A stretch of 64,000 nt of DNA, taken from Branchiostoma lanceolatum. Taxonomy: Eukaryota; Chordata; Leptocardii; Amphioxiformes; Branchiostomatidae. The notes beneath the pieces are model-generated. The model was not told where the DNA came from. It made no database searches and worked only from the letters and a program-made list of their open reading frames with translations. Numbering within the stretch: position 1 is the first letter of the stretch; each line of letters begins with the position of its first letter. This document shows positions 14,911 through 59,598 of this stretch, in pieces. Made by a program: the position numbers and the translations under genes. Location of the stretch: positions 11,520,001-11,584,000 of the forward strand of contig NC_089739.1 of NCBI RefSeq assembly GCF_035083965.1, read 5' to 3'.

Positions 14911-17900
14911 ATGTTCTACGCCCATTTCATCTTGAGTAAGAAGGGCCCCCTGGCAAAGGTGTGGCTGGCTGCTCATTGGGACAAGAAGCTTACCAAGCAG
15001 CATGTGTTTGAGACTAGCATCGAAGGCAGTGTGGAGAGCATCCTTCATCCAAAGGTAATATTCTGCATGTGTGTGATTGTGGAGCTTTCATTGTATGTTG
15101 AAAATGAAACCCACTTTTTACTCGATTATATATGAAGATGAGCGGCATTCGCTGTTTAAGACAATACTAGTAGGATTAGACAAGAGATGTACAAAAATGT
15201 CAAAGCAAGACACTTTTATATATTTATGTCAGGTAAGAACGAACATACAATAGACAAAGTATGTAGCCCGCCATGTTTCCAAATGTTTCAAAAAGAGAGA
15301 AGAAACTAAGTGATCAACATTAGTTTAGCGATAGTCGACAGTGTGTCTATCTTTTAGTTTGTCAATGTAGCAGGCTTATCAATTTATGTTTTGCATTATG
15401 CCTCTTAGACCACGTGTGGTCATCCGTGCATTTAGCCCATCTGGACAGGAATATGCAATAAAGAGTATTATTATCAAAGTTTCTTGGTGTGATATATAGG
15501 GGTTGCTAGATAAAAGTTCTCAAAAATGTTCAAGCTTTCAGTAACTTCGTACCTTTATATTCATATACGGTGTATACATTCAGTTGAAACTCCTTTTTCA
15601 AAGCAAGGACATTACTATCTTATAATTATGTCCTTGCTCAAAGTAAAAAACTATTATGCCTCTTAGACCACGTGTGGTCATCCGTGCATTTAGCCCATCT
15701 GGGCAGGAATATGCAATAAAGAGTATTATTATCAAAGTTTCTTGGTGTGATATATTCCCTAAATATGAACAGCTTCTTCCACCTCAATGCCGGAAGTGCT
15801 TGAGGAAGGGAAAGACATCTAATTTTAGACGTCAAACCTGATTTGATTGAAAGTTGGCCAAGAACTGAAACTAACTTCTTGTCATGTTCAGGACATGAAT
15901 TTTTATTTTACAGAAATAGGAATAATGTGATAAGCGTCGTCCAAGCTACATTTTCTAAATGAGATTTGTTCCCATTTTCAGGTGAAGATGGCCTTACGAA
16001 CATCAGGCCATCTGTTGCTGGGAGTGGTGCGTATCCACAACCGCAAGGCCAAGTACCTACTGGCTGACTGCAACGAAGCCTTCGTCAAGATCAAGATGGC
16101 GTTCCGGCCTGGCGTGGTGGATCTCCCGGAGGAGAACCGTGAAGCGGCTGTGGCGACCATCACTCTTCCCGAGGTGTTCCACGACTTCGACACCACCGTT
16201 CCTGACTTGAAGTGAGTGAAGACAGTTGTGCTGTGATTTCCTCATTGCCTTGGTGTTCGAAGTTTTCGTTGTGTCTGGATGTTTGTGTAACTGTTCTTGT
16301 GTTTTGTAGTTACATGTGTGTGTATTTGGATCATACAGTGTCATTAGAGTGGTAGAAAGTGAGTTGAAAGATAAATCTGCTGCGAAGGTCAGATTTGAAA
16401 GTGATACAAAGGTAGGAAGTAAGAGTTCAGAGTTGCAGAACTAATCACCAACAGATTATTTTGCAATATATTAGCAATCAATATGTGACTCTTTGTTATA
16501 TTATTTGCTGCAAATGTTTGATGAATAACATACAATTGAGACTGAGAGCACACAAGAACTTATTTCTGTAAACCCGTCCAATTTTGATAGATTGATAAAT
16601 GATTTGAATACTTTAGAATCTTTAAATGCTCTCGAAACTTTTGTTGCAAAGTTTCCTTACTAGCATGAACTTGCAAAAGTCTTTTCCATATTGCTCATAT
16701 AATGGTATTGTTTTTGAACATAACATGATGTGTCTTGTGCTCCAATCTCTTTTCTCTTTTTTGTTGCAGTGATTTTGACATGCAGGCTTTCACCATGAAC
16801 CAGAGCCGTGTGGAAGAAATCACCATGAGAGAGGACGTCGGCAACATCAACATGATGGAGACGGACGCCTTCGGTAAGGGGAATCTTTGAGCATGAAATA
16901 CAAAGTTGATATAATGATAACATTGAGCAATCACTAATGCAATGGTACCAGTTAGGGGTGGATATCGGTTCGACTGGACCGGTTTGGACCGGAAAAACAT
17001 GCAAGAACCGGGTCAAAAAAACCGAAAGTCGTGAACCGGTTTTTTGAACCCGGAAGTTGGAACAAAGTAGAAATATTAGAATATTTAGACATCTCCTTAG
17101 TACTCTGGCCACAGAAGGGGAAAAATAACATTGAATCAAACTAGATTAGCCAAAAATAAGTCCATATTCATCTCTTTCTATAGCTGTTTGTTCAGTTTTA
17201 GGTCGATACTGAAGTGTGCTACGAAAAAAAACACATAAAAGTTACCACACAGCCACGAGGTTGGTGCCGAATCGGCATCATGTATCCCCATAAACTCACT
17301 GGAAACTAAAAAAAACACACACTGTCACTCTCATAAAGTTCGATAAATCTTCACTTGAAACAAAGAAATCAACACCTGTTCGTTTTGAACCACCCAAAAC
17401 CCTCCATAGATCGTGGAATTTGAACCGGAAAAGAGGAAAACAAACCCTCAGCAAAACAAAAGATGGCTGCCATAGGCATAGAGGAGCATGCAAGCTCATT
17501 TGCATGTTCCATATATGGAATATGGGTGTGACACTACCGCCCTCTAGCGACCCTTAGTCACACTGCGGTTGATAATGATTCTAACACTATGTTTCAGTCA
17601 TAGCAAGGAGGTTTTTTTGGTCATAGTTTATCTGTAGGGGCAAACTTAAGTAATTTCCTTTATTGTTGTTGTTACATTACAAACTCTACTATCATTATAA
17701 CTGAATTACTTCTTCAATCTTTTTAAAAAGTTGTTTGATATACTATACTGCTTTTGTGTTTTGTACTACTGAGCTTTTTTGCTTACTACTGACTATAATT
17801 TTGCATTAATTTTTTTGAAATTATATTCCAGGATGTTAGTTTTGATTAATAGGACTATTACTTGGCAACCTGGCTCAAAAAAGTATTTTGCACCCTGAAC

Positions 17901-28246: not shown

Positions 28247-28638
28247 TCATTTGTTTGTAGACTACTTCCTACAGTTACTGTGCATTTTTTTCTGGTCTAT
28301 GTTCTTCAAGCATAGCGCTAGAAGGGAAAAGACTGAAGTGGACGATAATGGGTAAGCCTAGCACAATTCTACATCATATATCCCAGTATAAATACATGCT
28401 CGCACAGCATTAAACAGGCGGAGAAAAACTTACAGACCATGCATTTTTCTTTTTAGAAGAGCTGATATTTCTGCCCATTGGTTTAACATTTGGCTCTGTC
28501 CGCGCGGTTTTAAGATAAATAACGTTTTGAATAAATCGGTCATGTTACGTTACCTGTCTAATTTATCTTCAATGCATAGATATCTCCACATGGAGTTTTA
28601 GCATGCGGGCCTACACCCCCAACCACAAGCATCTGTCC
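28247..28638. repeat. KLHDC9 3' flank, with duplicated last-exon fragment
   Basis: Bases 28247-28555 match 10248-10560. Bases 28480-28638 form the first copy of a ~158-bp tandem duplication whose second copy, 28639-28797, contains the real end of KLHDC9. Read on the minus strand, the first copy still encodes GQMLVVGGVG...CGDIYALK and a stop. It is a pseudo-exon end lying downstream of the genuine stop. Confidence 0.8.
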
Positions 28639-28715
28639 ATTTAACATTTGGCTCTGTCCGCGCGATTTTAAGATAAATAACATTTTAAATAAATCGGTCA
28701 TGTTACGTTACCTGT

Positions 28716-30409
28716 CTAACTTATCTTCAATGCATAGATATCTCCACATGGAGTTTTAGCATCCGGGCCTACACCCCCAACTACGAGCATCTGTCCATTC
28801 AAAATACAAGTTGCGTGACCAGATCTCTTCAGCGAATTTTTCTCGTTCCACGGCTTTAAGTGGTACCAGATGGCATGCTTTCCTCCCGTGTCGAAGAGAA
28901 AGATGTCGTGGCAAACGGTATCCCTCGCACGAGCGAAGCATTCGCCCCCGTAGACCACAACGTATCGACCAATGGTAGAGGCTGTGTGGTGGTGGACTCC
29001 TTTGGGCGCCTGTTTTTTGGCCACCCCTTGTTCAATCAGTTTGGTGAAGCCAGCCTCCAAATCTGAGCATCTCGCCTCTTCAACCTGTGAAAAGACAACA
29101 AAGAACTTTTAAAGTTGGCAACTTTATCAAAATCCCAGCCAAACTGTAAGCAAAATACTATAAGTCAACCCAAGGAAGTTTAAACACAAAGTTAATCGAT
29201 CTGGTGAAAAATGCTTTGTAAATTAAGTATCACTGTAACATAAACTTGCAAATATTGTTTCAATCATTTCTTGGTATCAAAATAATCTTGTGTTGTATGA
29301 GCTGGTGAAAATTCCAATTCTTAGGGTTCCAGAAAAACGTATATGACACATTCAAGCTCTCAAAGTAATGTATCTAATGATGTTTTCCAAACAGTCTAAC
29401 TTATTCTGTTGTGCATCCACATTTTTCCTGTGCTCTTAAATCTTCTGAACACCATTGCACCTGTATTTCCAAAATGAATTTCAAGCCCTGATATGGTACG
29501 CTTCAGAAGTTACTGTGTAGATAAACATGTTTATGCATGGTAGTCATGCATGCACATGTATTATCATAGTGCATACCTACATACCTGGATTTTGCTTGGT
29601 TTCCAAGTTCCAATGATTTCATAGTCACCAGAGTCCCGTCCCCCGAACACCATCAGGGCACAGGTCTTTTCACCGGGAACCTTGATCATGCTGGCCGTGT
29701 GTCCCGATCGGGACGAGGCGTGATACCCTGCTTCTCGGTACTCGTATCGTCCTTTCTCGACGTCCACCTTCAGATGGAACACGCTTCCAAACCGTCGCTG
29801 CATTCTCACGCCTCCCTCGCGACCGACAACAAGCGTCTCCATCTCCGACAGTTTGGTGCACGTGTGGCTGCTGAGTCCGGCTGGCGGGTCGTTCGCCGGT
29901 CCAGGACAGAGATCTGACCATGAGAAGGATTTGGTGTCGAGTAGGGACACGGCGGATGTTCGCTGTTTGCCGTCCCAACCGCCAACAACGCAGACGTAGC
30001 GATCTAAAATGGTGACTGCAGCGTGGTGACTTCTGGCAGGACCTTCAGTTTTACATCTACGCAGAACGATAACAATTTTTCCAAATAATTCTTAGAAGTA
30101 ATAGAAAACAGTCTACTGAATTGTTTGTCACAGAATTTGAAAATATAAACTTGTCAGGAATATGATATTCCCTCTTTATTTTCAATCACAAAAGAACCAA
30201 TGACTATACCTGACTTTCTCCCATCCTGCTACTGGGTCAAAGACGACCACGTCGTTGAAGGGCTCCTTTGACTGCGCCACTGAGGTGCCGCCAAAAATGA
30301 CCAACCTGCCGCCCACAACGTTACAGGTGTGCGACACCCGGGCCGCTAGGGGGCAGCTCGACACCTGCTGCCAACTCCACGGTAGACTGCTCCCTCGATC
30401 CCCGCTCAT
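28716..30409 (-). CDS. KLHDC9: Kelch domain-containing protein 9
   Basis: Three exons join in phase: 30210-30409 (ATG at 30409), 29585-30056 and 28716-29084, for 346 residues; human KLHDC9 has 349. Kelch blades appear as VVGGRLVIFGGT, VCVVGGWDG, VFGGRDSGDYEI, VVVYGGE and LVVGGVG, each with a paired Gly and hydrophobic strand. Family-specific stretches include PARSHHAA, PPAGLSSHTCTKLS, VGREGG...QRRFGS and FARARDTVCHDIF, which place it in KLHDC9 rather than general kelch proteins. It should be a beta-propeller, probably a protein-interaction scaffold; the biochemical role of the family is poorly known. The gene is compact, with two short introns. Its 3' end lies inside a tandem duplication. Confidence 0.95.
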
Positions 30410-50530: not shown

Positions 50531-50738
50531 ATCGTTATGCTTGAATCCACTTTGTTTTATCAAATTTACCATAAGTTGAAGCCTGAACGCAGGCCAAACA
50601 TTATACTTTAGCGATCAAGTTCTTGAATTACCCGGAGGACCCTTCAAACAATGAGTTCTATGTTTCTTACAAAAGTACCAAAATCTCTATCCAAAGACGG
50701 AATAGTCTTAAAATTTTTCAGTGCACCTTCCTAAATGT

Positions 50739-51056
50739 GTGATAGTCACTTGACTGCTTTCATTAGGCGTCTACCGTTAGCGAGAAACTGTGCCCGAAGT
50801 TGGCCATACAAGTACATGTACATAAGAAGCGGGTCCGTATGGGGGGATACATATATGGATTTAGAAAAAGACTTGTCCAAAAGACAGCTGAGGTGATGTG
50901 TGATAGTCACTCGACTGCTTTCATTTGGCGTCTACCGTTAGTGACAAATTGTGCCCAAAGTTGGCCATACAAGTACATGTACATAAGAAGCGGGTCCGTA
51001 TGGGGGGATACATACATGGATTTAGAAAAAGACTTGTCCAAAAGACAACTTAGGTA
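50739..51056. repeat. Two-copy tandem repeat, 161 bp
   Basis: Copies start at 50739 and 50900 with GTGATAGTCACT and stay about 95% alike through GGTCCGTATGGGGGGATACAT and AAAAGACTTGTCCAAAAGACA. The open frame across it is a by-product of the repeat. Confidence 0.8.
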
Positions 51057-51236
51057 ATTTAGCCAAAAGTCAGGCGCATTTGTATCCCCAAAATATAATC
51101 TGAAAAGAATACCCCCTTCTTGAGTGGGATTCTCATTTTAAAGGCAGCTGTATAGATCTATAACAAAATGATATGTTAGTAAATGTTACCTTAAATTTAT
51201 GTCAAATATATACAAGTGTAAGGCTATGCTAATTCT

Positions 51237-54494: not shown

Positions 54495-57400
54495 TCAGTC
54501 TGAGGGGTCCCGACAGTGAGAACAGTCGCGCATTTCCTCCAGGAACAGCTCGATCTGAATCGTCGAGGAATGCACGTCGAATCTGCTGCGCACCAAACGG
54601 GAGGCTATGTCCAGCACCTCCTGGGGGTCCGCATCAACGTCTGGAAGAGATAATGATTGTAATGACCCAAATTTCAAATTTCAACTGTCAAATCAGCCTC
54701 TTCACAGCTGGAATCGTACGAAAGTTCATACTTGTAACTTAAAAATGCCTTCCTCAGATCGCAGAGCTGAATTAGCTTTGAGATGTTGTTTGTCAAGAAA
54801 TATGCCTTATGACCATCGTGCATATTTGGTAATCTTAGACAATATTATAAATGGGATGGGACTCTGTAGAATTGTATTGTTATACTTGGTGATAAAGTGT
54901 GACGTGTTTTTGGTTAGCCAGCCCTCCAAGCATGCGAACACTGGTAGTTAACGTCAGCTGAAACTATTGCGTGACTTTGTAGTACAGGTTTCCTCTTTAA
55001 TAGTTATGCGACAAGAGTGACTTTGCTCCGTTGGCGTTGCCAAGATGTATCGCACTTACCCACGGCGATGTGGACGGCCAGCGCGTTCTTTCCGACTGTC
55101 AGGGACCAGATGTGCAGCCCGTGGACGGCGTGCACCCCGGGGATCGCCTTCAGACTCTCCTTCACAGAGTTGAAATCCAGTCCGCGGGGGGTACCTGGAA
55201 ACAGAACAAGGGCAAAAAGATGTCAGGGGCGTCTGGAAACAGTTGTAAACAATTAGCATGACGCCAGAATCTGTCTCGTTAGAAAAAAAAAAATTGAGAA
55301 AAATTCGTCAAATGCTTCGTATTACTGGAATGAAAGGGGAGGCCCCTTTCTTCAAGCGATCCGACTTTTCTCAAGTGTGGGGCTTATAAAGGTCACGGAA
55401 AATGCCATTTGTCGCTAACTTTTATATGAATCAAACAGACAGGTGCTTACCGCCATTTTGGTGTCCCTATCTACATTTCAAAGTATCCAAGCGGAAGCGC
55501 GTACATCAGTTTGTGTTTCATCGGCAAGTATTCTTCAGTTATTATCTTCTTTGAGCTCTAGATCTAGTGACTGTTTGATAGGGTCAGAAGATATTTAAAT
55601 GTCTGAAAACACTTAACCTGCACACTATGCAAATAAGGACACCAACATGGCGACGGACAGAAGGTCTTTAAATGTCTGAAAACACTTAACCTGCAAACTA
55701 TGCAAATAAGGACACCAACATGGCGGCGGACAGAAGGTCTTTAGATGTCTGAAAACACTTAACCTGCACACTATGCAAATAAGGACACCAAAATGGCGGC
55801 GGACACTAATGAATGTCTATTTGCCGTACCTTCCATCAGCACGTTGATGGTGTCCCGCAGGATGCTGAGGGTTGTGATCAGCACCAGGACGGAGAACATG
55901 AAGGTGCAGATGGGGTCCGCAATGGCCCAGTCAGGCTGGGGAACAAAAACATGTTTACTAGTGATGTAGCTACTTACTACCTACCTAAGTGCGATGTACA
56001 TTTAGATGTACGATGGCCTGTAAAGACACTGCGTGGAAGCACTTCTTTACGGGACCACCGTAGCGATGACTATTGGTGATACGAGAGCTTGGAACTTTAC
56101 TAACAGAAAAGAACCAACCTCCTCTACAGTAGAGGTTACTAAGTATACAATGGACTAGTCTTCCGCTCAGACTTACATCCAAACTTCAGGCTGAATTTTT
56201 TTTCACATGACTTACAAAAAATCCGGAGCTTTTCAGGCTGTCATTGATAATGGCTACATGCAAGTTTGAGTCAAAGACACCGCCTTCCAATTTTTCTTCA
56301 ATGTGTATTTTTGAAGTCATTTGTTGCTGTCGGATTTGGCTTCATGGTCCATAGACTACGAAGGCCCACATCGACAACTACGCAACCATTTTGTCGCTGT
56401 GACGCGACAATTGTCGTTGTGGGCCTTTGTATTTCATTTAAAGATCCCGAAATCTCTAAGTGCTTACCCTGAAGTAAATGATGATTGCGGCGATCAGCAC
56501 GCCCAGACTCTGCACGAAATCCCCGACCACGTGGATGAACGCTGCCCGGACGTTCACGTTTTCTTTCCGGCTGTGCTCGCCTCCCTCTTCCTTCCCCAGT
56601 AACTCCGCGTGCGGGTCTCCCTGCTGGTAACCCTGACTCTCTGTACCGGTCCTAGCTTTTCCATTGCCGATGGCATTCCCTTCTTCACACGACCTAATGC
56701 CGCCATAACTACTCTGAATGCCGTTACTTTGGTAGCTTTTTGCCAACTTCTGACTCTCGTCGCATTCCTCGTGACTACATGGACCGTCCTGTGTATGACC
56801 TTTCTCAGATGGCTCTTGACCCTCGTGACCTGTTGACATCTGACCCCCGTGGCTGTGTCCGTGATCTGTTGATGTTTGACCCCCGTGGCTGTGACCGTGA
56901 CCTGTTGACATTTGACCCCCATGACTGTGCCCGTGACCTGTTGACGTTTGACCCCCGTGGCTGTGTCCGTGACCTGTTGATGTTTGACCTCCGTTGCTGT
57001 GACCGTGACCTTTGTCCCCGTGGCTGTGACCGTGACCTTTGCCCCCGTGGCTGTGCCCATGTCCGCTGAACCCGTGACTGTGTCCGTGACCCCACTGATG
57101 GAGGATGAAGCCCATTCTGTAGTGGAAATGTAGATTGTCATTTAGCATCAATACCCTCAGAATGCCCAAGGATGGGCAGTAGGCCTAAGTAAGTCAGAAT
57201 CAAGCACTGTCTTAAAAGAAAGCTACAATAAACTGCAATAAATAACATTAAAAATGTAGAAAATATTCAAACTTTCCTAAATCATTATCAAATAGAGACA
57301 GTTCATTAACAAATCACAGGGCAAAAAAATCAGCTATAGGCTCAACTATACGGCATCAGAACTAGTGATTGGTCAAAAGGTGTATAGAAGTCTAAACCGG

Positions 57401-59598
57401 GACGAGGGGTGATACAGTCTTCCTTATAATTAGTCTTTGATTTCTTACGTAGCGACCATATTTTTAGAAAAGATTCGGCTATCATTCAACAGATGTAATA
57501 ATCTTTCGTGTTATGTCTGCATGACCCTTCCGTACAATTCAAGAGCATTGAATTTTGCCGGCTCTTACACCAGATTGACAGCCACCCCGCAGGCAGCCGT
57601 GATGAGCATGATCTTGGTGTCGATGTCCATGTCTTTGTGGATGACTCTCAGCACGGCGTTATACACCAGGATCCCGGTCACCACCCAGATCAACAGCACG
57701 GACACCAGGGCACCCATGACCTCTGGAATATGGTACACGTAAACATAAACAAAAATAGAAACAAATGCCCAAACAAGTTCCGACGTCAGCAGCAGGGCCT
57801 AGATCCCGTCTTAAACAGGTAAAATTGAATAACAACATAAACATAAACAATAGAAGCACAGACGTCGACAACAGGGCCTGCATCACCTAAACAAGTAAAC
57901 ATAAACAATGTAAACTTGAATATCAAATAAACGTTATCATTAGACATTATAACTCTTATCACCTATTAATTAGCCAAAGACAACTGTAAAAATTGCAGGC
58001 CAATTGGATAAACAGTTCAAATCAGCATTTGGTATATAATGCATATAACCTATACAGACTGTCAATCTCCAAGCAGATGTGAAGAGTGGACTTACCCGCC
58101 CGGTAGTAGCCGAAGTTCATGCTCTTGGTGGCCGGCCGAGTCGCGACCCAGATAGCGAACAGGCTGATCATGAAGCTGGCGAAATCCGTCATCATGTGGG
58201 CGGCGTCTGTCATGATGGCCAGGCTGCCGGCTAGGTAGCCACCTGTCAATCACACATGCAAATTAGTGACGTCACCATACATGTATGGATGATCTCTGTC
58301 ATGATGGCAAGACTGGTTTTAAGATAAATCTGACAATCACATTTTCAAATAAGTGATATCACGTGACTGTCACGTGGTTAACCGATCACCTCGGCCACCA
58401 TGAAGATGAGACAGAGGATGCACATATATCACGTGACCTATCGTGATATCACGTGACTATCACGTGACTTACCAATCACCTCGGCCACCATGCAGATGGA
58501 AAAGAGACGCACATATATCACGTGACCTATTGTGACATCACGTGACTATCACGTGACTTACCGATCACCTCAGTCACCATGAAGATGAGACAGAGGATGC
58601 ATATATATCACGTGACCTATCGTGATATCACGTGGCTATCACGTGACTTACCGATCACCTCGGCCACCATGAAGATGAGACAGAGGATGCACATATGGCC
58701 CCATGTGACATCACGTGTACATCACGTGCACATCATGTGACTTACCGACCACCTCGGCCACCATGAAGATGAGACAGAGGATGCTGGCCATGATGAGTTT
58801 CTTCCTGGCCGTGGGGTCCACGGGCCGGCTCTCCCCGCTGTCATGGCAGTGGGACCGGTCGTTTCTACCCAGCAGGTACTGCTCCTGGGGACGTAGTCAT
58901 GAGAAATGTGTCAACAACAGCAGCTGATCTTTACATGTCGTTTTCGTGGGGAAGTTAAAATTATTTTCTTCCATTACGCAAATTAAAATCGGTGGAATCA
59001 AAATGGCAACTTTTTGGTTGTTACTTAGATCCTCTCACGGTAAGAAGATGCACTTGGATACGTAAAGGTTGTGGTACGGCCAAATTTTTATTTTCAATGG
59101 CTTTAAAGGGACACAGTAGACTCTGCTGAAAAACTCCATGCCTTTAATACTTCTTTCCGTTGTTCTGAAAGTTCGCTTACATATTAGTTTTCGTGTTGTG
59201 TCTTCTCGTCTATCTTGACATCACATGCAGAGCAATAGGTTTTCTATGCAATGAGAATTCTGTAACATACAATAGATAAAGCCCTAATTTATGATATCAT
59301 AAAATATTTAAAAAAATACAGCAGAGCATACCAGGCCAGGGTTCATTCATTTAAATAATAAGAAATATATCACCAAGTTAAAGTACAGGGTGAAAAGTTT
59401 TATTTCTAAAGATGTCCATTCACTCCCATTTTTCTCCACAGACCCTCCCTGAATGATTAGTGGTCTGTCCCTGATACGTACCTCGTCATCATCATTAGTG
59501 GACGTGTCCGTGATGAAAGGTGTGCATCCGCCCGGCCTCACGTCACCGCCCCTGTAACACAAGAAAGATAGTCTCAGTGCACCTTCTATACTACTCAT
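54495..59598 (-). CDS. SLC30A8: Zinc transporter of the SLC30A2/3/8 (ZnT) group, 5' end uncertain
   Basis: Minus-strand exons in phase: 59482-59551, 58746-58884, 58096-58242, 57569-57722, 56468-57116, 55830-55935, 55060-55194 and 54495-54640, about 515 residues. ZnTs exchange cytosolic Zn2+ for protons into vesicles. The cytosolic SHCHD motif precedes TM1 (MASILCLIFMVAEVVG). Zinc-site residues appear as HMMTD in TM2 and HVVGD in TM5. VRAAFIHVVGDFVQS, YFRPDWAIADPICTF and LHIWSLTV are family marks, and the end CSHCRDPSD keeps the CxxC of ZnT2/3/8. Exon 56468-57116 encodes a loop of about 150 extra residues with eight GHGHSHG-type repeats. The start is unsettled: either the 59551 acceptor joins an unseen upstream exon, or translation starts at the in-frame ATG at 59598. 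The symbol reflects RAD21 linkage; the gene may equally predate the ZnT2/3/8 split. Confidence 0.9.
55601..55810. repeat. Three-copy tandem repeat, 73 bp, in SLC30A intron
   Basis: Units begin at 55601, 55674 and 55747 with GTCTGAAAACACTTAACCTG. Each contains CTATGCAAATAAG (an octamer/POU-type motif) and AACATGGCG(A/G)CGGACA (resembles a YY1 site). Copies differ by a few bases only. Confidence 0.8.
56829..57045. repeat. 36-bp coding minisatellite of the His-rich loop
   Basis: About five units of 36 nt (GACCCCCGTGGCTGTG plus CCGTGACCTGTTGA type) encode the 12-residue unit GHGHSHGGQTST and variants. It lies within exon 56468-57116, and shorter 24-27-nt variants adjoin toward 57100. The period is a multiple of three, so copy changes stay in frame. 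Confidence 0.8.
58368..58745. repeat. ~90-bp tandem array copying an exon end and splice donor
   Basis: Four units with (A)CTTACC-like starts at 58376, 58467, 58556 and 58646 precede the real exon edge at 58740. Each repeats the final ~40 bp of the TM1 exon (CACCTCGGCCACCATGAAGA on the plus strand) and, in three of four, the GTAAGT donor. Thirteen CACGTG sites fill the rest. The array lies in the intron between the exons at 58096-58242 and 58746-58884. Confidence 0.85.

Follow-up and report, generated by a model that had tools for sequence, protein, structure and literature searches.

Both boundaries of a single intron have been duplicated in a putative amphioxus zinc-transporter gene, with the copies lying inside that same intron, and we think it likely that the locus is a mirage-type minisatellite, in other words a neutral duplication of exon/intron boundaries through which the intron has grown inward from both of its ends. 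What we see here is probably harmless intron growth, and not a switch. The zinc-transporter array opens no new class, and yet mirage-like arrays are natural experiments on how the spliceosome chooses among near-identical, closely spaced donors, in addition to being a source from which introns can be enlarged or gained. Since the copies here represent the two boundaries of a single intron, the choice of donor and the choice of acceptor could also be tested jointly.

A zinc-transporter intron with both ends copied

The window, by which we mean the whole 64-kb stretch of Branchiostoma lanceolatum DNA that was analysed, contains an SLC30/ZnT-like gene on the minus strand, and all of the gene features described below are read from that strand. 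Eight exons were modelled, E0 to E7, from 59552 to 54495, which when joined (with the E3 donor at 57568) form one open, stop-terminated frame of 514 residues; the model starts at E0. Pfam finds Cation_efflux (1.8e-45) and ZT_dimer (1.2e-15) in the full model, and the histidine-rich exon of the gene is located at 57116–56468. These two domains together with a histidine-rich loop are features of the SLC30 (ZnT) family, and all three are present here. For the part encoded by E1 to E3, the best PDB matches are ZnT8 first, and then SLC30A3 and SLC30A4, and on the basis of sequence we assign the host gene to the SLC30 (ZnT) zinc transporters, with ZnT8, ZnT3 and ZnT4 as its apparent nearest relatives. 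Exon E1 (58746–58884; ...ASILCLIFMVAEVV) is 139 nt long and ends in phase 1; it yields no family when searched singly with Pfam, and the label of TM1 that it received in the initial annotation would fit ZnT topology. Exon E2 (58096–58242), also searched singly, matches Cation_efflux at 8.1e-13, and between these two exons lies the host intron (58243–58745), which is 503 nt long and reads GTAAGT...TGACAG.

Four units of about 90 bp stand 3′ of the true donor (GTAAGT, 58740–58745, beginning at 58745), each of them copying the 3′-terminal 39 nt of E1 together with the beginning of the intron. TRF places this array at 58353–58784, with a period of 90, 4.8 copies and 86% matches, and assigns to it an 11-bp subrepeat (TATCACGTGAC), while self-BLAST matches the array to itself at an offset of 90 with E = 1.5e-112. 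In unit 1, the exon-tail copy (58652–58690) differs from E1 at one of its 39 positions and is followed by an intact decoy donor, GTAAGT (58646–58651, beginning at 58651); unit 2 shows three differences in 39 (58562–58600) and the same GTAAGT (58556–58561, beginning at 58561). Unit 3 is the most changed, since an ungapped comparison of its exon-tail copy (58473–58511) finds 11 of 39 positions different, the product of a 1-nt deletion and clustered substitutions, and its GTAAGT occupies 58467–58472 (beginning at 58472). In unit 4, the exon-tail copy (58383–58421) is again 1/39 away from E1, and the donor is broken, reading GTTAAC (58377–58382, beginning at 58382). Counting from the true donor through unit 4, donors are spaced by 94, 90, 89 and 90 nt, and the last full codon of the exon tail, which is GTC in E1, reads ATT in unit 3 and ATC in the other three units. 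The initial annotation had proposed just such a set of four copied exon tails, three with an intact GTAAGT, at these coordinates and within the true donor's own intron, and TRF, self-BLAST and the alignment of the units all bear it out. An exact match to the 34-nt exon tail was absent from bacterial and archaeal contigs, a search that is uninformative for animals, and neither Rfam (gathering thresholds) nor ARAGORN (bacterial code) gave any match in the window.

The opposite end of the intron has been copied as well, which the initial annotation overlooked. At 58362–58295 lies a diverged duplicate of the segment that joins the intron's 3′ end to the start of E2, and its true counterpart, which takes in the intron 3′ end, the acceptor and the E2 start, was found by BLAST at 58206–58275 (50 of 70 aligned positions identical). 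Where the true acceptor reads TGATTGACAG the copy has TGATTGTCAG, with a decoy AG at 58330–58331 and 58329 as the first base after it. The local alignment, made between non-overlapping segments, scores 32, compared with 27 or less in 2000 dinucleotide shuffles. Duplication is not confined to donors: this acceptor copy adjoins the donor-side array from outside. No acceptor inside the units had been noted in the initial annotation; AGs do occur there.

Tandem arrays are of course prone to misassembly, and one amphioxus globin mirage was apparently misassembled in a draft genome (PMC3087553). In the present case, however, pairwise divergence among the five copies, counting the true boundary as one of them, is 7–18% and the array is only about 430 bp long, and for both reasons we hold an assembly artefact to be exceedingly improbable; the gene also reads through all eight modelled exons, which speaks against it too.

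Amphioxus mirages and the proposed origin

Mirage minisatellites are described from amphioxus Adh3, troponin C and the globins BflGb6 and BflGb9, with repeat units of 10–72 bp in Adh3 and of about 150–160 bp in the globins, and they are thought not to disturb splicing (PMC3087553, PMC3902484). Mirages are recorded from floridae globin genes and, earlier, from Adh3; duplication can affect 5′ as well as 3′ boundaries, Gb6 copy number differs between two haplotypes, and the inner units of Gb6 are homogenised with the ends of the array left out (PMC3087553). The zinc-transporter locus resembles these amphioxus mirages in that the tandem unit spans an exon/intron boundary and in that many units carry splice signals, three of the four donor copies being intact here and the acceptor copy keeping its AG. 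Unlike the globin mirages, where Gb6 is shown with acceptor-side copies and Gb9 with a donor-side copy, our intron has copies of its donor and of its acceptor boundary alike, and this is the addition that our locus makes to the amphioxus cases compared.

Further loci can be compared. The 60-bp and 108-bp repeats of lancelet PGBD5 are, like ours, imperfect tandem repeats that abut or overlap splice sites, and in that gene the repeat copy number differs between assemblies. For introns of VCBP3, the presence of whole exons or parts of exons, canonical splice sites being kept in some of them, is mentioned as data not shown (PMC2632668). Intron gain through duplication across a boundary has also been described (PMC4974935), and there, too, a boundary-spanning tandem duplication adds splice signals; the outcome in that account was a new intron, whereas our locus looks like the enlargement of an intron that already existed, with no sign of a new one. 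Among the open-licence literature matches listed, none is a zinc-transporter mirage, which is weak evidence of absence; PMC2206037 and PMC8724738 contributed nothing further here.

We envisage that local tandem duplication gave rise to the four copies of the exon-end/intron-start junction, and that a separate event produced the one copy of the intron-end/exon-start junction. The acceptor-side copy is the less identical of the two, and so this second event would probably be the older. The intron would in this way have been enlarged from both ends inward. Within the donor-side array, unequal exchange or conversion probably keeps the inner units alike, and homogenisation of this sort would preserve intact-looking donor copies without any selection on splicing. 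The likeness to Gb6, in having homogenised inner units with the ends excluded, is present in the first 31 intron bases, where units 1–3 differ among themselves at 1–3 positions, pairs that include the true boundary at 8–13 and pairs that include unit 4 at 5–13. The 39-nt exon part argues against homogenisation, for there the pattern is absent and it is an inner unit, unit 3, that is the outlier, at 10–12 differences from each of the others. Units 1 and 4 agree throughout the exon part (0/39) yet differ at 6/31 positions in the intron part (Fisher p = 0.006). Uneven conversion may be the cause of this mismatch between exon and intron, with constraint as a possible alternative.

Predicted splicing and possible regulatory consequences

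Ten donor/acceptor pairings were translated, namely five donors (the broken one included) with each of two acceptors. Only the true pairing stays open, and all nine that involve a decoy reach a stop: whenever a later donor is used (eight pairings), translation ends after ...AEVVGKSHDVHVMYT at the same TGA (58713–58711), which lies 33 nt inside the intron, and the true donor joined to the decoy acceptor ends at a TAA after VVDLS. It had been suggested that use of a later donor would duplicate or truncate TM1. The later intact donors extend E1 by 94, 184 or 273 nt, and because the in-frame TGA is found in every extension, donor choice could truncate TM1 and never duplicate it; truncation survives as a prediction, and duplication through a later donor is ruled out by frame.

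Judged by predicted pairing with the U1 5′ end, three of the decoys are near the true donor, which is at -8.8 kcal/mol compared with -8.8, -8.8 and -8.6 for the intact decoys and -2.8 for the broken one. Masking of the decoys by RNA structure finds no support in predicted folds: the mean unpaired value in the global RNA fold is 0.14 for the true donor versus 0.47, 0.46 and 0.19 for the intact decoys, which makes the true donor the least accessible of the four, and in 160-nt folds it comes second, at 0.52 versus 0.58, 0.46 and 0.41. As a suggestion, the first donor may win on account of its upstream exon context, of which the copies carry only 39 of 139 nt.

Such near-equal donors, none hidden by predicted folding any more than the true one, are what might be looked for in poison-splicing control, whereby some transcripts would use a decoy, gain a stop and decay, and zinc status could set the level of the transporter; the sharing of one TGA by every decoy-donor product, and the TAA met through the decoy acceptor, would also suit it. 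However, an early stop is the expected fate of most intron read-through, within tens of nucleotides, and the decoy stops are for this reason no sign of design. The existence of the decoys is moreover explained by the copying itself, and we consider control of this kind very improbable. Highly unlikely, in our opinion, is the chain of ideas in which inward-growing ends set up competing donors and two acceptors, these yield zinc-responsive transcripts bearing a stop or a TM1 insert, and differences in array length between individuals tune the output. On the neutral mirage reading that we prefer, splicing would be expected to join the first donor to the final acceptor, and transcripts made with a decoy donor or the decoy acceptor would carry an early stop and be mostly lost through nonsense-mediated decay.

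A repeat unit might instead be spliced in as an exon of its own. Fifteen AG-to-donor cassettes of 20–160 nt were found, of which two are stop-free through E2 and one of these is in frame; this last (58526–58473) is 54 nt long, lies in unit 3 and would insert 18 residues in frame (GHVIYVRLFSICMVAEVI), in part a repetition of TM1. The second stop-free cassette is out of frame and relies on the broken donor, and a count restricted to the three intact donors leaves ten cassettes in the real intron, one of them in frame and open. Some encouragement for exonisation comes from lancelet PGBD5, in which two 108-bp units were once annotated as an exon in a gene model, although the authors set this repeat-derived exon aside and inferred normal splicing (PMC3902484). 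The difficulty is that, when the intron was shuffled 2000 times with its donors kept in position, 1469 of the shuffles contained at least one in-frame open cassette. Because shuffles yield one so often, the cassette is no evidence of function, and we have discarded it as a functional sign. Its upstream AG (GTGATGTCACAATAG) is without a clear pyrimidine tract by eye, a weakness that is tempered by the true acceptor being weak too, with pyrimidines at half of the 20 nt before its AG. All in all, insertion of unit 3 as a cassette seems to us extremely unlikely, and the doubt expressed in the initial annotation about independent exonisation still stands, given a lone in-frame open cassette at chance level.

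A different kind of function would be that of an intronic enhancer, for which the array might have been kept on account of its E-boxes. Thirteen CACGTG palindromes, which had also escaped earlier notice and are presumably sites of the USF/MITF/TFE type, lie in the intron between 58359 and 58728, although the expected number for all 64 kb of the window is 9.7. Of the 28 CACGTG sites present in the window, 13 fall in this interval, as do 9 of the 11 TCACGTGA sites, a concentration that would favour such a role. The CACGTG sites multiply with the repeat unit, however, and being carried along by it they are not independent of one another; nor did a literature search bring up a link between TFEB/CLEAR-element E-boxes and SLC30A zinc transporters, its one near match being unrelated to judge by title and abstract. 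We rate an enhancer as a doubtful proposition, with a very low probability.

Local duplication around the copied boundaries

Are exon boundaries preferred as targets of duplication? We scanned the 14 exon ends and starts that face the seven introns of the model (the E3 end used was two bases short), and two of the 14 have a clear intronic copy, both of them in the E1–E2 intron. Of 1500 random 45-nt pieces, 51 are matched by a copy scoring at least 32 in the 503 nt that follow, and 16 by one at the donor-side match score, the array being included in both counts. Set against this background of 3.4%, two of 14 gives p ~0.08, with both in one intron, and a preference for boundaries is not demonstrated. 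Self-BLAST returned 16 rows within 2 kb in the window, several of which belong to one array, and local duplication being so frequent, the boundary copies may be its chance victims. Support is mixed for palindrome hairpins as a trigger of duplication: folding of five pieces as single-strand DNA gave z = -3.80, -1.25, -2.31, -0.77 and -0.87, and of 200 shuffles 0, 20, 6, 45 and 35, respectively, folded equally well.

Several smaller repeats were seen in the same gene. A short, marginal copy of the E0 end (59453–59475) lies directly past the E0 donor and is possibly a worn mirage; its score of 26 was reached by 0/200 shuffles, the best of which gave 23. The copy of the E3 start is weaker, with a score of 21 that is reached by 3/200 shuffles, and the E5 exon end is without a clear intronic copy (score 18, reached by 15/200). 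The intron that follows E5 holds three 73-bp tandem copies (95%) at 55582–55805, which start about 25 nt past its donor end. Coding sequence is repetitive too, with 36-bp and 27-bp repeats in the histidine-rich loop of the ZnT protein at 56824–57091, on the minus strand (GHGHSHGGQTST units).

Elsewhere in the window, a 161-bp tandem duplicate (94% identical) occupies 50735–51058 and has no Pfam match in the one frame scanned of six. A 103-bp direct repeat at 15395–15755 is 99% identical, its copies 258 bp apart, and a minus frame of 15200–15898 shows a weak DUF3788 match, below the Pfam cut-off. Finally, a 158-bp tandem duplicate on the minus strand at 28482–28805, about 95% identical, carries the terminal part of a stretch coding for kelch repeats (LNGQMLVVGGVGPDAKTPCGDIYALKI) together with the bases that follow it, the boundary being in this instance either a splice site or a stop codon.
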